Part shown: piece after piece, positions 6,334-21,840 of the stretch
Position numbering within the stretch: position 1 is the stretch's first letter
Layout of the letters: every line of letters begins with the position of its first letter
IMG/VR virus record: IMGVR_UViG_3300033144_004167
Span: 1-23,949 of that record
DNA from: a virus
Reading direction: 5' to 3' (one strand)
Length of the DNA stretch: 23,949 bases
The notes under the pieces: generated by a model
What the model was told of the DNA's origin: nothing
Databases searched by the model: none
Seen by the model: only the letters and a program-made list of their open reading frames with translations
Translations under genes and position numbers: made by a program

Positions 6334-7866
6334 ATGAAATTTCAGCCTATCCGCGCGCTTCGAACTATGTTCGGATACGACGCGATTAACACGAAGGGAA
6401 GACGGAACGCGATCGCGGTTTCGTCGCGGACGGAAGATCGCGAATTGAATTCTTCCGACCGGAAGATCCTAACTTCGAACGCCGAAGATCAGCGAAGGAA
6501 TATCGCGCTTTGTCGCTGGATGATTAATAAGCACCTGGACTTCGTCACGAAATTTTCGATCCAGGTACGAACCGGCGACGACGAATTGAACGTGAAGGTC
6601 GAACGGCTTTTGAAATGGTGGAGTCGTCCGAAAAATTGCGACGTCGGGAAGCGGCATAGTTTCCAGGGAATGATACGAATCCTGGAAGCGCTGGCAGTGA
6701 CGACCGGCGATTCGGCGATTTCGAAACTGTCGTCCGGCAAGTTGCAAGGCATCGAAGGAACGCGGATCGCGACGCCTTCCCGCGGCGATATTCCGGAATC
6801 GGTAGCGAAGGCGAAAGCCGCCGGACGCTTGACGCTTGGCGTCATTCACGACGCCGCGTCCGCCGCGATCAGTTACGTAGTAAACCGCCGCGTCCGCGAC
6901 GGCTTGGAATACGAAGCGACGTTGAACGCTTCCCAGGTGGAGTTTTACGGTTTCTTCGATCGCTGGGATCAGGTTCGCGGAATCTCTCCGATCGCCGCCG
7001 CGTTGAACATTATGCGCGACCTTTACGAAGGATTCGAATACGCGCTAATGAAGGCGAAATTTCACGCGTTCTTCGGCGTCGCGATTATGTCCGACGGTTC
7101 GATCGAAGACGACTATTTCCGACAAGACGAAATCCGCGACAAAGATACGGACGGCGACGACGACGTCGATACGGACGACGCGCCGCGATACGAATTCCAA
7201 CTAAAGCCAGGGCTTAAGCTTGAGCTAGACAATGGCGACAAGATCGACACGATCGAATCGAAGACGCCGTCGAACGAATTCCAAAACTATTCAGTCCTTA
7301 TGATTCAGATCGCCTTACTCGCGCTCGATATTCCGTTGACGTTTTTCGATTCGCGGAAGTCGTCGTTTTCCGCTTCGCGCGCTGATATGTCGCTATATAT
7401 GGAAAGCGTCCACCGGAAGCGGGAAGCGCTACACGAAGTAATTTTGAATATCGTCTATTGGAAGTTAGGGCAATGGACGCGGACGACTGGCGACGACGGA
7501 AAACCGCTTGTCGTTCTTCCGGAAGGGAAGACAATCCGCGATATTGAAATCGATATTATATCGACTGGCGTTCCCTGGATTGATCCTATGAAAGAAGTCG
7601 CCGCCGGAGCGAAGGAAATCGCGATCGGCGTAAATTCGCGGACGCGCTATTGCCGCGAACGCGGTCGCGATTTTTGGACTATTAAGGACGAACTAGCCGC
7701 GGAAGAAAAAGCTTTGGTCGACGCTGGCGTTACTGTTGAAGTGGCTACCCCTGGCGCGCTTACGACGCGCGACGAAGAAGGTGCCGGAAATCCGTCGAAT
7801 ACGGAAGCCGACGATTCGCCGGAAGACTTGACCGAAGCCGAAACAATCGGAGCGACCGAACAATGA
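6334..7866 (+). CDS. Portal protein, lambda-type
   Basis: The dodecameric vertex protein through which DNA enters, 510 residues, normal for the lambda portal family. Recognisable parts are a helical N-terminus (RWMINKHLDFVTKF), the conserved wing/stem signature near 205-225 (FFDRWDQVRGISPIAAAL), the clip region near 330-360 (LDIPLTFFDSRKSSFSASRA) and the C-terminal WIDPMKE-AAGAKEIAIGVNSRT segment with RGRDFW. AAGGGA 8 bases upstream fixes the ATG at 6334; a longer open frame from 6052 overlaps the previous gene. Residues 271-282 form an EF-hand-like acidic loop (see findings). The tail is acidic and disordered. The stop overlaps the protease start (ATGA). Confidence 0.92.
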   Translation: MKFQPIRALRTMFGYDAINTKGRRNAIAVSSRTEDRELNSSDRKILTSNAEDQRRNIALCRWMINKHLDFVTKFSIQVRTGDDELNVKVERLLKWWSRPKNCDVGKRHSFQGMIRILEALAVTTGDSAISKLSSGKLQGIEGTRIATPSRGDIPESVAKAKAAGRLTLGVIHDAASAAISYVVNRRVRDGLEYEATLNASQVEFYGFFDRWDQVRGISPIAAALNIMRDLYEGFEYALMKAKFHAFFGVAIMSDGSIEDDYFRQDEIRDKDTDGDDDVDTDDAPRYEFQLKPGLKLELDNGDKIDTIESKTPSNEFQNYSVLMIQIALLALDIPLTFFDSRKSSFSASRADMSLYMESVHRKREALHEVILNIVYWKLGQWTRTTGDDGKPLVVLPEGKTIRDIEIDIISTGVPWIDPMKEVAAGAKEIAIGVNSRTRYCRERGRDFWTIKDELAAEEKALVDAGVTVEVATPGALTTRDEEGAGNPSNTEADDSPEDLTEAETIGATEQ

Positions 7867-9218
7867 GCAAGCAAGACAAAAAGAAAGCCGCCGAATTGAA
7901 GGCGCGCGGTCGCCGACTGAACAAGCGCGCGACTTCCTTCGAATCGATGCGCGAAAGCCTGGACGCCGCGAAGGTTCCAGGAACTACGGATTCGAACAAG
8001 TGGTTTCGGACGGCGCCGATTATCGGCGCGGTTCCAGCGATAAACGGTTCGATCGACGAAGAGAACGGAATCCTTCACGACGTCGCCGTCGCTACGCTTG
8101 GCGAAGCGCGCGGACATGGCGTCCAGCTAGACCGTTCGTTTCTGAACCGGCTTGTCGAACTTGGGAACGAATCGAAGAAAGGTCTTAAGGCGCGATTCGG
8201 ACACCCGAACGCAAGCGGAACAAGCCTGGGGACTTTCGTCGGTCGCTTTTGCGACTTCCGGATTCGACCGGATTCGCCGAACGTCGTTCGCGCCGACTTA
8301 CACTTGGACGCCAAAGTCGCGAAGGATACGCCGAACGGAAACCTATACGATTACATTATTCGAATGGCGCGGCACAATTCCGATATGTTCGGAACGTCGA
8401 TCGTCTTCAAGCCAGGAACCGAAATCGATCCGATCGAAATTCCCGACGGCGATCGCTTGTTCGCCGATCTTCCGATCGCCACGATCGACGAATTCTTGGC
8501 GGTCGACGTCGTCGACGATCCGGCGGCGAATCCGGACGGCTTGTTTTCCGCGTGGTCGGCTGAACAATTCGCCGGACAAGTTACAAACTTCCTGGACGCG
8601 AATCCGCATATTTGGGGAGTCCTGGACGATCACCCCGAAATCGTCGCGCCGTTCTTCGAACGCTATCGCGCCTATTCTACCGCAAAAACAAAAAACGAAG
8701 GTGAAGCAATGCCGAAACCAGAAAAGAAACCGGAAGCGATCGCCGCTTCCACCGTCGCCGAACCAGTCGCCGCGCCAGTCGCCGCGCCGGTCGAACCAGT
8801 TGTCGAACCGGTCGTCGAACCGGAAGCCGCGCCAGCCGCCGAACCGGTTGTCGCCGCCGCGCCAGTTGTCGAGCCGGAAGCCGCGCCAGCCGCCGAACCG
8901 GTCGCCGCGTCCGCAAGCGATCGCGTCGCGGAACTGAAACGGATTCAAAAGGAATTCGGCGCCAGTATCGCTGCCGCCGCTATCGACGAAGACTTGTCTT
9001 TCGACGAAGCGTCTTCGCGCTATATCGCCGAACTTCGCGCGGAAAACGAATCTCTTCGTTCCGGCGTCGCAAGCGTTGAACCGGAAGGCGCCGCGCCGGT
9101 ATCCGGCGGCGAAGGCGAGTCCAGCCGCAAGCCAGCGAAAACCTATCAGTCGTCGCTCTCCGAAGGTATGGCGGCGCGCGCTGAATACTTGGAAAACCGC
9201 ATGAAGGCGCGCAAGTAA
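7863..9218 (+). CDS. Prohead maturation protease fused to scaffold domain
   Basis: A 451-residue protein. Residues about 50-230 look like a phage capsid maturation protease of the assemblin-like type. His114 (RFGHPN) and Ser179 (MFGTSIVF) are the likely catalytic pair, and His147 (ADLHLD) is a possible third member. The segment FLAVDVVDDPAANPDGLFS closes the domain. Residues about 283-360 are a Pro/Ala/Glu/Val-rich linker with internal repeats. Residues 360-451 are helical (RVAELKRIQKEFG, AELRAENESLRSG) and resemble a scaffold. Overlap with the portal (ATGA) and the following capsid gene fit the classic order. An internal start probably yields free scaffold. Catalytic residues are predicted by pattern. 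Confidence 0.8.
   Translation: MSKQDKKKAAELKARGRRLNKRATSFESMRESLDAAKVPGTTDSNKWFRTAPIIGAVPAINGSIDEENGILHDVAVATLGEARGHGVQLDRSFLNRLVELGNESKKGLKARFGHPNASGTSLGTFVGRFCDFRIRPDSPNVVRADLHLDAKVAKDTPNGNLYDYIIRMARHNSDMFGTSIVFKPGTEIDPIEIPDGDRLFADLPIATIDEFLAVDVVDDPAANPDGLFSAWSAEQFAGQVTNFLDANPHIWGVLDDHPEIVAPFFERYRAYSTAKTKNEGEAMPKPEKKPEAIAASTVAEPVAAPVAAPVEPVVEPVVEPEAAPAAEPVVAAAPVVEPEAAPAAEPVAASASDRVAELKRIQKEFGASIAAAAIDEDLSFDEASSRYIAELRAENESLRSGVASVEPEGAAPVSGGEGESSRKPAKTYQSSLSEGMAARAEYLENRMKARK
8709..9218 (+). CDS. Nested scaffold protein (internal start, Nu3-like)
   Basis: In-frame internal translation start within the protease gene at codon 283. GAAGG at 8697-8701 lies 7 bases before ATG 8709, a good ribosome binding site placed exactly at the junction between protease and linker. 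The product would have 169 residues: MPKPEKKPE, the Pro/Glu/Val/Ala repeat region, then a helical scaffold. Lambda C/Nu3 is the known precedent for protease and scaffold sharing a C-terminus. Expression from this start is inference, but the binding site and domain boundary agree. Confidence 0.7.
   Translation: MPKPEKKPEAIAASTVAEPVAAPVAAPVEPVVEPVVEPEAAPAAEPVVAAAPVVEPEAAPAAEPVAASASDRVAELKRIQKEFGASIAAAAIDEDLSFDEASSRYIAELRAENESLRSGVASVEPEGAAPVSGGEGESSRKPAKTYQSSLSEGMAARAEYLENRMKARK
8820..8902 (+). repeat. Direct repeat in protease/scaffold linker
   Basis: A 29-base sequence occurs identically at 8820-8848 and 8874-8902, offset by 54 bases (18 codons). It encodes the repeated motif EPEAAPAAEPV. 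The surrounding linker has further shorter VEPV and AAPV repeats. The period is a multiple of three, so copy-number change would lengthen or shorten the linker without a frameshift. Confidence 0.85.
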
Positions 9219-12090: not shown

Positions 12091-12456
12091 ATGTCAACAC
12101 AAGTAGGAAATCAAGATTTGATCTGGGGCGTTACCGATACCGGAACGCTTGGACTTTTCGAAACGCTGGACTTTGAACAAGACGGCGAACAAACCGAAGT
12201 AACGGACGGCGACGGCGCGATTCAAGCCGTAATCTTTTCCGGCGACAAGTTGAGCGTTACCGCGTCTTTCGCTTATGATAGCGGCGGCGGGAATTCCGTT
12301 CCCGAACGCGGGGACGTTATCGTTCTTTCGCAAGCTCCGCAAGACTGGGCGGTTACTTCAATCATCGTCACGAAGGTAGGGCAAGCGTTCAGTAATTCGG
12401 ACGTTATGAAAGTTTCCCTCGACGCGGTCGCTTATCCTGAAATCACCGTACCGTAG
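12091..12456 (+). CDS. Tail tube-like protein
   Basis: A 121-residue beta-rich protein before the assembly chaperone gene, where the major tail tube gene is expected. It has FETLDFEQDGEQTEVTDGDG, KLSVTASFAYDSG, RGDVIVLSQ and VTSIIVTKVGQAFSN, ending in KVSLDAVAYPEITV. The order 'E-TD--G----V--D----V------G----P--GD-I-L' followed by two final strands recalls small tail-tube-fold proteins. It is shorter than many siphophage tubes but the only candidate here. GGAG upstream supports the start at 12091. No other tube gene is visible in the window. Confidence 0.55.
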   Translation: MSTQVGNQDLIWGVTDTGTLGLFETLDFEQDGEQTEVTDGDGAIQAVIFSGDKLSVTASFAYDSGGGNSVPERGDVIVLSQAPQDWAVTSIIVTKVGQAFSNSDVMKVSLDAVAYPEITVP

Positions 12457-12465
12457 GGCTAGAAA

Positions 12466-13056
12466 ATGAAAGGGAAACATTCGCGAACCGTTTCGCCAGC
12501 CGAAGCGGCGAAGCTCAAGAAATTAGCCGCCGCGCAAGGCGCGCCGTCGATCGCTCCGGAACCGGAGTCGCCGACGGTCGCGCTTTCCGCGATTGAAGGC
12601 GCCGCCTATTTCCTGGGAGAGTTACCGTTGCAACCGGCAACGCTGGAACATATCGCCGCGCTTCATGCGATCGATTCGCCGTTCGTTCGCGCTTCCGGTA
12701 TCGTTACGGAAGACGATATGTCGCCGCCTTCGATCGCGCGGACGGTCTTCGTCTTCGCGGCTGGCGCCAAGTCGGCGCGGCCTATTATGGCGCTGATCCA
12801 GCGTCGCAAGGCTTTAGAGAAGTACGCGGACTTGGCGAAGACCGGCGCCGACTATTTCGCCGCGTTCCTGGAAAAGTCCGACGAACTGGCGGACGTCGAA
12901 GCGGAGTTTACCGCGCAAGCCGTCGAAGTGTATTCGCTGGCGGGACTGATTCCGATCGAAGAAACCGTCGGCGTTATCCGGCAAATCTTGGCCGACGCTA
13001 TGGACGGCTTTTCGTTACTTCCCGAAGACGGCGGAAAAAAAAAGGCGAAGAACTAA
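12466..13056 (+). CDS. Tail assembly chaperone, short form (gpG-like)
   Basis: A 196-residue mainly helical protein directly upstream of the tape measure gene, the conserved place for tail assembly chaperones. The N-terminus is basic, then a Pro-rich linker (IAPEPESPTVAL), then helices that contain FLGELPLQPATLEHIAALH and RPIMALIQRRKALEKYADL. It ends in PEDGGKKKAKN, encoded over a run of nine A bases. AGGG upstream supports the ATG. The A9 tract at 13035-13043 and the open -1 frame after it identify the G/GT arrangement known from lambda and many other siphophages and myophages. Confidence 0.8.
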   Translation: MKGKHSRTVSPAEAAKLKKLAAAQGAPSIAPEPESPTVALSAIEGAAYFLGELPLQPATLEHIAALHAIDSPFVRASGIVTEDDMSPPSIARTVFVFAAGAKSARPIMALIQRRKALEKYADLAKTGADYFAAFLEKSDELADVEAEFTAQAVEVYSLAGLIPIEETVGVIRQILADAMDGFSLLPEDGGKKKAKN

Positions 13057-13262
13057 ACTTCGAACACATATCCGCAATAATTTACGCCGCCGCGGCGCGG
13101 CTGAACCTTTCGCCGCGTGAAGCAATGTCGACGCCGCTTTCGCTTATATCGCATTGCATAGCCGCCGCGGCGAAGGTCGAAGGGAAGGACGTCCGCCGCC
13201 GACCGCAAGCCGGAAAACTCAAGGAACTTTTGAAATGGGGAAGCAAGAACTACGCGCCGTAA
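12466..13262 (+). CDS. Tail assembly chaperone, -1 frameshift form (gpGT-like)
   Basis: Predicted 265-residue fusion. Ribosomes slip back one base on the A run, most simply at A-AAA-AAG (13038-13044), and continue in the -1 frame from 13044 to the TAA at 13260-13262. The 72-codon extension reads GEELNFEHISAIIYAAAARL, then NLSPREAMSTPLSLISHCI, then a basic stretch and LLKWGSKNYAP. It has no start of its own, no stops, and the same codon preferences as real genes. It ends 28 bases into the tape measure gene. Frameshifting itself is inference, but position, heptamer and open extension all match the conserved phage mechanism. Confidence 0.82.
13038..13044 (+). other. Slippery heptamer A-AAA-AAG
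   Basis: In-phase -1 slippery sequence inside a nine-A run (13035-13043) followed by G, 9 bases before the zero-frame TAA at 13054-13056. A AAA AAG is an efficient bacterial slip site. A second overlapping heptamer, A AAA AAA (13035-13041), gives a product of the same length. I see no strong stimulatory hairpin immediately downstream. Confidence 0.8.
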
Positions 13263-14731
13263 TTTCTGGAGACGCCAGGAAGTTTAACCGGACAATGGGA
13301 CAGGTTAAGAATACGGCGAAGCGTACCGCGAAAGGCTTGGCGGTTTTGGGCGTCGCCGGTATCGCCAAAGCGACGAAAGACGCCGCGGAGTTTCAGACGC
13401 AATTGGCAGAAATCGGAACGCTTGGCGGATTCGCCGAAAAGGAACTGAAAGGCGTCGGCGATCAATTGTTGACGCTTGGCAGTGAATTAGGCGCGACGAC
13501 TACCGAATTGACCGGCGGCTTATATCAAGCGCTTTCGGCTGGCGTTCCAAAAGGTAACGCGCTGGAATTCCTGGAAACTTCCGTTCGCGCCGCGAAGGCT
13601 GGTATTTCGGATACCGAAACGGCGGTCGACGGACTGACGACCGTGATAAACGCTTACGGACTGGAGTCCAGCGACGCCGGTAAAATTTCCGATCAGTTCT
13701 TCGCAACCGTCAAAGCCGGTAAAACGACCTTCGGCGAACTGTCTTCGAATATCGGTAAAGTCGCGACGACCGCGGCGACGGTCGGCGTTTCGACGGAAGA
13801 ACTTTTCGCGTCTTTCGCGACGCTCACGAAACAAGGTCTTTCGACCGAAGAGGCGACGACGCGAATTTCCGCGGCGATTTCGTCGCTACTGAAACCGGCG
13901 CCAGCGCTTACGAAGGTCTTGGACAAACTTGGATTCGCAAGCGGCGAAGCGGCAGTGAAGCAATTAGGCTTTCAAGGCGCCTTGGACGCGGTCGCGAATA
14001 ATGTCGACAACAACAACAAAGAAATCGCGAAGCTATTTCCAAGCGTTCGCGCGCTTGGCGGCGTCTTGTCGCTTACCGGCGCGAAGGCGAAGCTTGCCGC
14101 CGGAGACTTGCAAGCCTTGAAGAATTCAAGCGGAGCGACGGACGCGGCGTTCGCGATTCTTGCGAATACCGGCGCGAACACTTTCGCCAAGCTACAAGCG
14201 ACCGCGAAGAAATTATCCGTAACGGTCGGGAACGAAACGCTTCCGATAATAAACGAAGAACTGAAAAACCTTAACGAATTCCTGGCGACCGAAGAATCCG
14301 GACAACTTTTCCGCGATCTTGCCGACGGCGCCGCCGGAGCGCTCCAGGTAGTGAAAACGCTTGTCGGCGGAATTAATGAAATCGGTAAACTACTCGCGAA
14401 GATTGATCCGAAACGCGCGATCGCTTCCGCCTTCCCTGGCGGAACGCTGGCGCTGGACTTGGCCGAAAAGCTTGGATTCGAACCGAAGATCGGCGGCGCG
14501 CCGTCTTCGCTTGGCGAAGCCGTTACCGACGAACAAGTGACCGCGGCGCGGGAAGTCTTGCAAGGGAACCAAGTCCTGCAAGGCGCGACGACGACCGGTC
14601 AGTTTTTACGCGCGAAGGTTATCGAAGACTTTTTGCGCGCTGGCAGTACGGATAGCCTTTCGACGCTCCAGAATATCGAACGGCTTATGGATCAGAGATT
14701 ACCAGCCGCAACACAAGGCGCGACGCAATAA
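13235..14731 (+). CDS. Tail tape measure protein
   Basis: A 498-residue protein that sets tail length. The TP901-type core (about residues 45-300) is clear: AAEFQTQLAEIGTLGG, YQALSAGVPKGNALEFLE, AAKAGISDTETAVDGLTTVI, ATVKAGKTTFGELSSNIGKV and FASFATLTKQGLSTEEATTR. Helical and Ala/Gly-rich sequence follows, with no peptidase or lysozyme domain. AAGGA about 10 bases upstream marks the ATG at 13235; a longer frame from 13154 overlaps the chaperone extension. At about 0.15 nm per residue (general rule) the tail would be roughly 75 nm, short for a siphovirus. The stop overlaps the next start (TAATG). Confidence 0.9.
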   Translation: MGKQELRAVISGDARKFNRTMGQVKNTAKRTAKGLAVLGVAGIAKATKDAAEFQTQLAEIGTLGGFAEKELKGVGDQLLTLGSELGATTTELTGGLYQALSAGVPKGNALEFLETSVRAAKAGISDTETAVDGLTTVINAYGLESSDAGKISDQFFATVKAGKTTFGELSSNIGKVATTAATVGVSTEELFASFATLTKQGLSTEEATTRISAAISSLLKPAPALTKVLDKLGFASGEAAVKQLGFQGALDAVANNVDNNNKEIAKLFPSVRALGGVLSLTGAKAKLAAGDLQALKNSSGATDAAFAILANTGANTFAKLQATAKKLSVTVGNETLPIINEELKNLNEFLATEESGQLFRDLADGAAGALQVVKTLVGGINEIGKLLAKIDPKRAIASAFPGGTLALDLAEKLGFEPKIGGAPSSLGEAVTDEQVTAAREVLQGNQVLQGATTTGQFLRAKVIEDFLRAGSTDSLSTLQNIERLMDQRLPAATQGATQ

Positions 14732-20236: not shown

Positions 20237-21094
20237 ATGAAACAAACTGTCGGGAAACAGCTACACGCGATCGGCGGACTTCCGCGATCCGGTTCCACTC
20301 TATTATGCAACCTATTAAACCAAAATTCGCGCTTCCTGGCTTCGTCGACTTCGGCGCTTCCTGGCTTCGTTCGCGGCTTGTCGGCGATCGCTTCGGAACG
20401 GATCGAAGTTCGCAACTTGCTGGAAAGGTTTCCGGATCAGACCGTCGCGCGGCTGAACCATTCCGTCGGCGCCTTTTGCGCCGCTTGGTACGGCTGGACG
20501 GACGCGGACTTCGTATTCGACAAGTCGCGCGGCTGGAACGATCAGACGACGGCGTTTCGGGACTTGAATCCTGGCGGCGTCTTGTTCGTCATTGTTCGCG
20601 ACTTGCGCGCGGTCTTCGCCAGCGTCGAAAAGCAAGATCGGAAGTCCGGTCTTTTCCGGTCGTCGCCGACGACGATCGCCGACCGATACCGCGGCGCGTT
20701 CGCGGCGGACGGCGTTATCGGCGCGCCGCTTCGGGGAGTTATGTCGATCGTCGATCAGCGACCGGAAAACGTCTACTATATCCGATTCGAAGACTTAGTC
20801 CGGCGACCGGCGGAAATGCTTTCCAACATATACGCCAGGATCGGCGCGGAACCTTTCGAACACGACTTCGCGAACGTGGAGAATACGGCGATCGATCCGG
20901 ACGGCTACTATTTGCACAAGTTCCCGCACGAAGGAACCGGCGCCGTCGAAGTCCGTCCGGAGTCTTGGCCGGAAATCCTTCCGGACTGGATCGCCGCGGA
21001 CATTATGAAAGCCGCCGCGCCTTATAACGAATTCTTCAAGTATGGCGCGCCGCCGCCGTCACAACAAAAAAAAGAAAGGGAGTCCACGAAATGA
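20237..21094 (+). CDS. Sulfotransferase family protein
   Basis: A 285-residue protein with the PAPS-dependent sulfotransferase fold. The N-terminal strand and P-loop-like 5'-phosphosulfate loop is GGLPRSGSTLL (residues 13-23). The 3'-phosphate site is VIVRDLRAVFAS (118-129), with Arg121 and Ser129. The C-terminal YYIRFEDLVRRPAEMLSNIY (180-199) is the usual RYEDL-type helix. FDKSRGWND (94-102) also occurs in bacterial relatives. Length is normal. The reaction would move sulfate from PAPS to an acceptor, probably a glycan, that cannot be named here. It lies between tail fibre and envelope genes, and its codon pattern is that of the phage. The ATG at 20237 has no Shine-Dalgarno and probably depends on the upstream gene. 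Confidence 0.88.
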   Translation: MKQTVGKQLHAIGGLPRSGSTLLCNLLNQNSRFLASSTSALPGFVRGLSAIASERIEVRNLLERFPDQTVARLNHSVGAFCAAWYGWTDADFVFDKSRGWNDQTTAFRDLNPGGVLFVIVRDLRAVFASVEKQDRKSGLFRSSPTTIADRYRGAFAADGVIGAPLRGVMSIVDQRPENVYYIRFEDLVRRPAEMLSNIYARIGAEPFEHDFANVENTAIDPDGYYLHKFPHEGTGAVEVRPESWPEILPDWIAADIMKAAAPYNEFFKYGAPPPSQQKKERESTK

Positions 21095-21840
21095 AACCGA
21101 AAACCAAACTAGTAGCCTTCGCGCTTGTCCTGGCGTCCGTCTTGCTTGCCGGATGCGGCGCGACTGGAAGCCTTGCGCGTAGCGACCGCGCCGACCGGAA
21201 CCGCGTCGCGCCGACCGATCGCGACCGCGACGTTTTGTTGGCGGCGATCGCCAAGAATCAGACGGCACTAGGCGCGAAGATCGATTCGAATATCGAAAAA
21301 GGCTTGGTAATCAAAAACGAAACCGAAGACTTCGCGCGCGACACGAAAGGCGAAGTCGTCGTTATCGAACTGGCGGACGGAACTAAGTCCACGATCGCCA
21401 CGAAATCGACGATCGACGTTCGACTGAATTCATTTCACGAACTGGCGCAACAATTGGAAGGCTTCGAACTGGACGTCGCGACGCGATCGACGGCGCAAGT
21501 CGGGACGAATCAAGTATTCGGCGCGTCCGGATTCGACGGACTAAGGCTTCGAATTAATAACGCTGGCGGCGCCGGACTAAAGTCCGACAACATTCGCGCG
21601 CTTTCGGAAGGTCGAGCCGTTGAAAAGTCCGCCGCCGCTAAAGCCGCGGTCGAAGCGATCCGCGCGCGCTGGGAAGGTCTTCGCGGACTCACGATCGAAC
21701 TATCGAACGGCGCGCGCGGGATTATTCGCGAAGTGAATTCCGTTACGCCTATGGGCGTCGGACGCGCCGCGGTCGAAATGGTCTTGGAAAACGAAGACGG
21801 CGAAACCGAAACGGCTATCGAAACGGTTCCGATCGAATGA
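21091..21840 (+). CDS. Lipoprotein of envelope cassette
   Basis: A 249-residue protein with a classical lipoprotein signal: MKPKTK, a hydrophobic stretch and lipobox LAGC with Cys22. Gly follows the Cys, compatible with outer-membrane sorting in Gram-negative hosts. The mature part has an Arg/Asp-rich segment (SDRADRNRVAPTDRDRD) then mixed helices and strands (GEVVVIELADGTKSTIATKS, RGLTIELSNGARGIIREV). No enzyme motif is seen. It starts in an ATGA overlap with the sulfotransferase gene, with its own AAAGGGAG site, and ends in another with the nuclease-like gene. It could serve as an outer spanin-like or exclusion factor; unproven. Confidence 0.7.
   Translation: MKPKTKLVAFALVLASVLLAGCGATGSLARSDRADRNRVAPTDRDRDVLLAAIAKNQTALGAKIDSNIEKGLVIKNETEDFARDTKGEVVVIELADGTKSTIATKSTIDVRLNSFHELAQQLEGFELDVATRSTAQVGTNQVFGASGFDGLRLRINNAGGAGLKSDNIRALSEGRAVEKSAAAKAAVEAIRARWEGLRGLTIELSNGARGIIREVNSVTPMGVGRAAVEMVLENEDGETETAIETVPIE

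Follow-up and report, generated by a model that had tools for sequence, protein, structure and literature searches.

A run of nine adenines as a very likely −1 recoding site in a gpG/gpGT-like gene upstream of a phage tape measure gene

Does the gene that immediately precedes the tape measure gene of this virus end at its stop codon, or is it continued in another frame? An earlier note had proposed, from the letters alone, that a run of nine A just 5′ of this stop is followed by a −1 frame that stays open for 72 codons to 13262, and that a −1 frameshift there makes a gpGT-like tail chaperone. In the window (the whole stretch of 23,949 bases that was analysed, a record of IMG/VR), the run and the open frame are indeed present. 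The gpG-like frame-0 ORF, on the plus strand at 12466–13056, encodes 196 aa and has its stop codon at 13054–13056; the A9 run occupies 13035–13043 of the same strand, the ORF ends 13 nt after it, and frame 0 reads GGA AAA AAA AAG GCG AAG AAC TAA over it. The −1 extension (plus strand, 13044–13262) comprises 72 codons at 13044–13259 and a TAA stop at 13260–13262. The gene order and the overlap with the tape measure gene were also described correctly: an ORF of 498 aa (plus strand, 13235–14731), which starts with the ATG at 13235 and shares 28 nt with the extension, matches Pfam PF10145 (E 6e-32) and PHROG tape measure families. On the other side, the plus-strand ORF at 12091–12456, for which PHROGs and Pfam gave no family match, is likely the tail tube gene, judging from its position before the chaperone-like gene.

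The openness of the −1 frame is weak evidence alone, because a −1 frame that stays open beyond a stop is a common occurrence in this window; here the frame is open already from 12597, far 5′ of A9. The case for recoding is carried by codon use, homology and the A run. The codon use of the extension, which the note had called normal, is gene-like in the −1 frame only: the codon log-odds amount to 0.389 bits per codon in that frame and range from −0.155 to 0.237 in the remaining five, the in-frame values of the window ORFs longer than 300 nt being 0.28–0.61 (ORFs 619 and 20101 excepted). These two ORFs have a higher codon score in another frame and look mis-framed. The note was inexact in denying the extension a start of its own, as the frame contains an ATG at 13125, 45 codons from the stop, as well as a TTG at 13230.

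A9 is the sole run of at least nine A in the window and contains the only in-frame X_XXY_YYZ heptamers within the 460-nt overlap of frames 0 and −1: A_AAA_AAG at the end of the run (plus strand, 13038–13044) and A_AAA_AAA three bases upstream. Two further ORFs among the 28 listed for the window have such a heptamer in frame in their last 150 nt. Elsewhere in the window, an A8 run (21066–21073, in-frame A_AAA_AAA) is found shortly 5′ of the stop of ORF 20237–21094, where the −1 frame runs into ORF 21091–21840; either a further recoding site or simply an ATGA overlap of four bases could explain this.

Single-protein scans revealed no close relative, whether IMG/VR was queried with the gpG-like ORF and the tape measure ORF or genome contigs with the gpG-like ORF; GenBank phages yielded no relative of the gpG-like ORF, and their only matches to the extension had an E-value of 6. 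Distant relatives were reached via the terminase, then via the gene at 7863–9218. Three of them (L173, from a Lentisphaerae MAG, and L100 and L101, from IMG/VR) have at the corresponding place, 5′ of a further long tail ORF, one ORF of 247–253 aa, to which the frame-0 product and the extension together can be aligned. When a profile of these three sequences was run against 471 six-frame segments of the window, the top match was the −1 segment (E 3e-4) and the second the frame-0 ORF (E 1.1), which aligned with the preceding part of the model, a result that is suggestive rather than firm.

The genomes searched comprised 387 from the phylum (13 with matches), 137 from the order (29) and 197 from its class (30). 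The family is made up of prophage-like loci from one bacterial order, including a Lentisphaerae MAG, and of two IMG/VR contigs. Seven relatives are split like the window (genome/locus: G304/L267, G033/L268, G283/L263, G191/L265, G348/L276, G369/L277 and G395/L278); six belong to the order, which includes the genome of the Lentisphaerae MAG (G001), and G191 belongs to another order. Scans with the queries labelled A3, A4, A7 and A8 gave no new virus record and recovered the L100 and L101 contigs again, and a family search in six genomes of other groups, run with no positive control, found nothing. The single-ORF count refers to 25 loci, with L269, L287, L288 and some later-fetched loci outside it. 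A remnant riddled with stops (L315, in G571) and a short single ORF (L318, in G570) were excluded from the counts; L097 and L169, where one ORF precedes the tape measure gene, are possible remote relatives whose alignment was unconvincing, and were left out of later counts. The best terminase relative (L013) differs in its tail region, and the match of L056 to the extension is a chance one, inside another gene. Note that some of the relative loci may be decayed prophages.

Homology was assessed in a non-circular way with a profile built from 12 natural single-ORF members, without any joined sequence, and run on the six frames of the 8 split loci (window included). In all eight, the two best matches were the frame-0 ORF 5′ of the run and the −1 segment 3′ of the run, in colinear order, and the frame change was −1. 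In the window, frame 0 matched positions 22–146 of the 254-position model (E 3.7e-7) and the −1 frame positions 151–212 (E 1.4e-6), the third-best match having an E-value of 0.88. The weakest split member, L265, gave E-values of 4e-7 and 0.0027 (extension), and was not recovered in a repeat search with the query labelled A6. Since the relatives without the A run encode both parts in a single frame, the extension is protein. Stops in the extension or a broken run in related genomes would speak against the earlier note; all seven split relatives have an A9–A10 run and an open, homologous −1 extension. At the level of sequence comparison, the split, its position, the homology of its halves to one natural protein and the conservation of run and direction are established, and the interpretation given in the note is supported overall.

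In the window, as in 6 of the 7 split relatives, the next gene encodes a tape measure protein; in L265, the following ORF had no family match. The window protein matches PF10145 and those of L267, L268, L263, L276 and L277 match TMP_3 (PF20155), so that this chaperone type occurs alongside different tape measure families.

The 8 split loci, 45,602 nt in all, contain eight runs of at least nine A, every one at the junction: A9 in the window, L267, L268, L263 and L276, and A10 in L265, L277 and L278. The frame-0 ORF ends 13–128 nt past the run. In all eight, the run holds an in-frame X_XXY_YYZ heptamer and is the sole source of such heptamers in the frame overlap, but what is conserved is a long A run whose codon phase changes. 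The chance figure for this arrangement is 1.5e-16 under the assumptions of a 60-nt target per locus and of independence, and, the loci being related, serves as a rough guide only.

Among the single-ORF relatives examined, 24 of 25 have no run of at least nine A. L173 (11707–12450), for example, encodes the gpGT-like protein as one ORF, and as the junction run is absent in many such members, they have no obvious route to a separate gpG. L275 (1483–2268) is a single-frame member with an A9 run at the equivalent place, in frame, where a −1 slip would truncate the product, the reverse of the window. A tRNA synthetase gene lies upstream of it, so that it is maybe a relic, and none of the genes in this short locus was recognised as a tape measure gene.

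These data are best explained by programmed recoding: A9 is very likely a programmed −1 recoding site, whichever machine slips. Most expression would stop at 13056 and give the 196-aa gpG-like protein, while a fraction would shift to the −1 frame at A9 and continue to 13262, yielding a fused, gpGT-like product of about 265 aa. If lambda is a guide, tail assembly would involve both products together with the tape measure protein, and recruitment of the tail tube would fall to the extension. Expression, product ratio and chaperone function are what we infer; for comparison, excerpts of PMC3711429 mention 6–7% frameshifting in reporters for a cluster of phage tail chaperone genes. The single-ORF relatives count against recoding, in that they show that the split is not required in every phage of the family.

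The same relatives could be read differently: the true gene might be one ORF, with an A10 miscalled as, or mutated to, A9, the split being an artefact or the mark of a dead gene. Homopolymers are prone to error, and 24 of the 25 single-ORF relatives examined manage without such a run; against this, the split recurs at one and the same place in eight separate records, always by −1 and always at the sole runs of at least nine A of their loci, and the extension retains gene-like codon use. An indel or sequencing error is unlikely because place and direction are the same in eight assemblies, and we regard this explanation as very improbable. Marginally less probable still is that the extension is a separate small gene starting at ATG 13125, or is translated by reinitiation past the stop. 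This ATG is in frame, but the homology to single-ORF proteins starts at 13053, well 5′ of it, both parts are one protein in those relatives, and a clear Shine-Dalgarno sequence was not seen by eye.

Within programmed recoding, the question is which machine slips: we judge the ribosome to come first, with RNA polymerase close behind. We give about an even chance to a mechanism in which the ribosome slips by −1, in tandem, on A_AAA_AAG. Slippage of RNA polymerase is a version of the recoding explanation rather than a competitor to it, and the likelihood given to it overlaps with that of recoding: some transcripts would gain one A, normal translation would give the fused protein, and there would be two mRNA species. 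We hold this to be a serious possibility that falls somewhat short of even. In its favour, the run is 9 or 10 in all 8 loci, though 7 would be enough for a heptamer; the other A runs of the same loci peak at A8 (A6, n = 21; A7, n = 5; A8, n = 3); and the codon phase takes all three values (0 in L267, L263, L265 and L278; 1 in L277; 2 in the window, L268 and L276). A comparison set of 251 other loci, scanned by rule, contained 60 −1 candidates of chaperone-like type, spread over 47 loci; none of their runs exceeded A8, and the commonest motif was A_AAA_AAC (21); some of these candidates are due to chance, and a few of the scanned loci hold single-ORF family members. No stimulator common to the 8 split loci was seen, either as an upstream Shine-Dalgarno-like element or as a downstream structure: downstream folding gave median z values of −0.78 to 0.14, with best single windows of −0.4 to −2.63, and L276 alone had a strong Shine-Dalgarno-like element (−12.0 kcal/mol, these scores having no shuffle control). 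L275, with its A9 in frame, recalls the split/in-frame tssM pair, for which excerpts of PMC4256274 report polymerase slippage demonstrated by experiment. Against polymerase slippage, a −1 change in 8/8 indicates a ribosomal event by the rule in section 10 of PMC3711429 (insertion-biased slippage would match too), the tail chaperone recoding in the excerpts of PMC5009743 is ribosomal, and an in-frame A_AAA_AAA heptamer is present in any A9.

How does this gene relate to known chaperones? A tail chaperone frameshift conserved among long-tailed phages was reportedly described by Xu, Hendrix and Duda in 2004. The gpG/gpGT type of lambda, whose conservation among long-tailed phages is also stated in excerpts of PMC5009743, has its gene just 5′ of the tape measure gene, a short frame-0 product, and a −1 extension close to the gene end that reaches the tape measure start. 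The window has the same layout: the gene lies directly 5′ of the tape measure gene (as in 6 of the 7 split relatives), and a slippery site near its 3′ end is followed by a −1 extension that stays open as far as the start of the tape measure gene. The family differs from lambda in its A9–A10 run of variable codon phase, in its common one-ORF relatives and in that no sequence relation was detected. Neither the frame-0 half nor the extension had a significant PHROGs or Pfam match, both were below NCBIfam cut-offs, and the family members tested had no detectable homology to gpG/gpGT or other known tail chaperones. Structure models (mean pLDDT 35.8 and 39.0) were too poor for use. The name gpGT-like, as used in the earlier note, therefore holds for position and architecture and not for sequence kinship: as far as sequence can tell, the gene resembles gpG/gpGT in position and architecture and is not assignable to that class by descent.

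Cyanophages S-CBS3 and S-LBS1, and many IMG/VR relatives, have a −1 site of A_AAA_AAC type at the same place, but with an A6–A7 run and a C after it. PHROG chaperone families match the S-CBS3 and L056 proteins but not the tested members of the window's family, and hhalign comparison of the two profiles gave a probability of 0.1%. In S-CBS3 (L011, 11978–12687) and S-LBS1 (L012, 13023–13744), the A_AAA_AAC site and its extension before the tape measure gene are unannotated, and the S-LBS1 frame-0 ORF carries the label ABC transporter ATPase. Chaperone-like ORFs of 114–125 aa located 5′ of the tape measure gene (L056 10305–10649; L011 11978–12355) match PHROG 569 (phrog_569), whose label, tail length tape measure protein, is probably an error.

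The family also resembles poly-A slippage genes, namely tssM of Citrobacter and Yersinia (excerpts of PMC4256274) and dnaX of Thermus (excerpts of PMC3711429 and PMC5009743): a long A run, short and long products, and orthologues that are split or in frame. These are not phage tail genes, and slippage was experimentally shown there (on an A11 run by RNA polymerase for tssM, according to PMC4256274), whereas here the argument is sequence-based. The usual signs of both mechanisms are found in all 8 split loci: a heptamer and a constant direction for a ribosomal −1 site, the heptamer being unavoidable in any A9, and, for transcriptional slippage, an A/T run of about nine or more, here A9–A10. In the open-licence papers covered, among them PMC3711429, PMC5009743, PMC10885494 and PMC4256274, neither this family nor a tail chaperone made by transcriptional slippage was found to be reported. 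That it is a chaperone family with no detected sequence kinship to known ones, making both products by RNA polymerase slippage on A9–A10, is a proposal we put forward tentatively, as a little less probable than its opposite. If true, the mRNA would determine which form, short or long, is made, and family members would change in evolution from split genes to single fused ORFs or the reverse. A tree of 31 sequences (8 split, 23 single) requires 4 state changes; it is poorly resolved, with the window on a long branch, and leaves undecided whether the ancestral state was split or fused.

One gene thus very probably supplies this virus with two tail-assembly helpers, a short and a long one. Gene callers end this gene at 13056 and miss the longer product, one that the tail probably requires. 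Within the family there is a natural series (split genes with A9 or with A10, an in-frame gene with A9, and fused genes without a run) that lets ribosomal and polymerase slippage be distinguished, and the single-ORF members pose the question of how a tail may be built without a separate gpG-like product.
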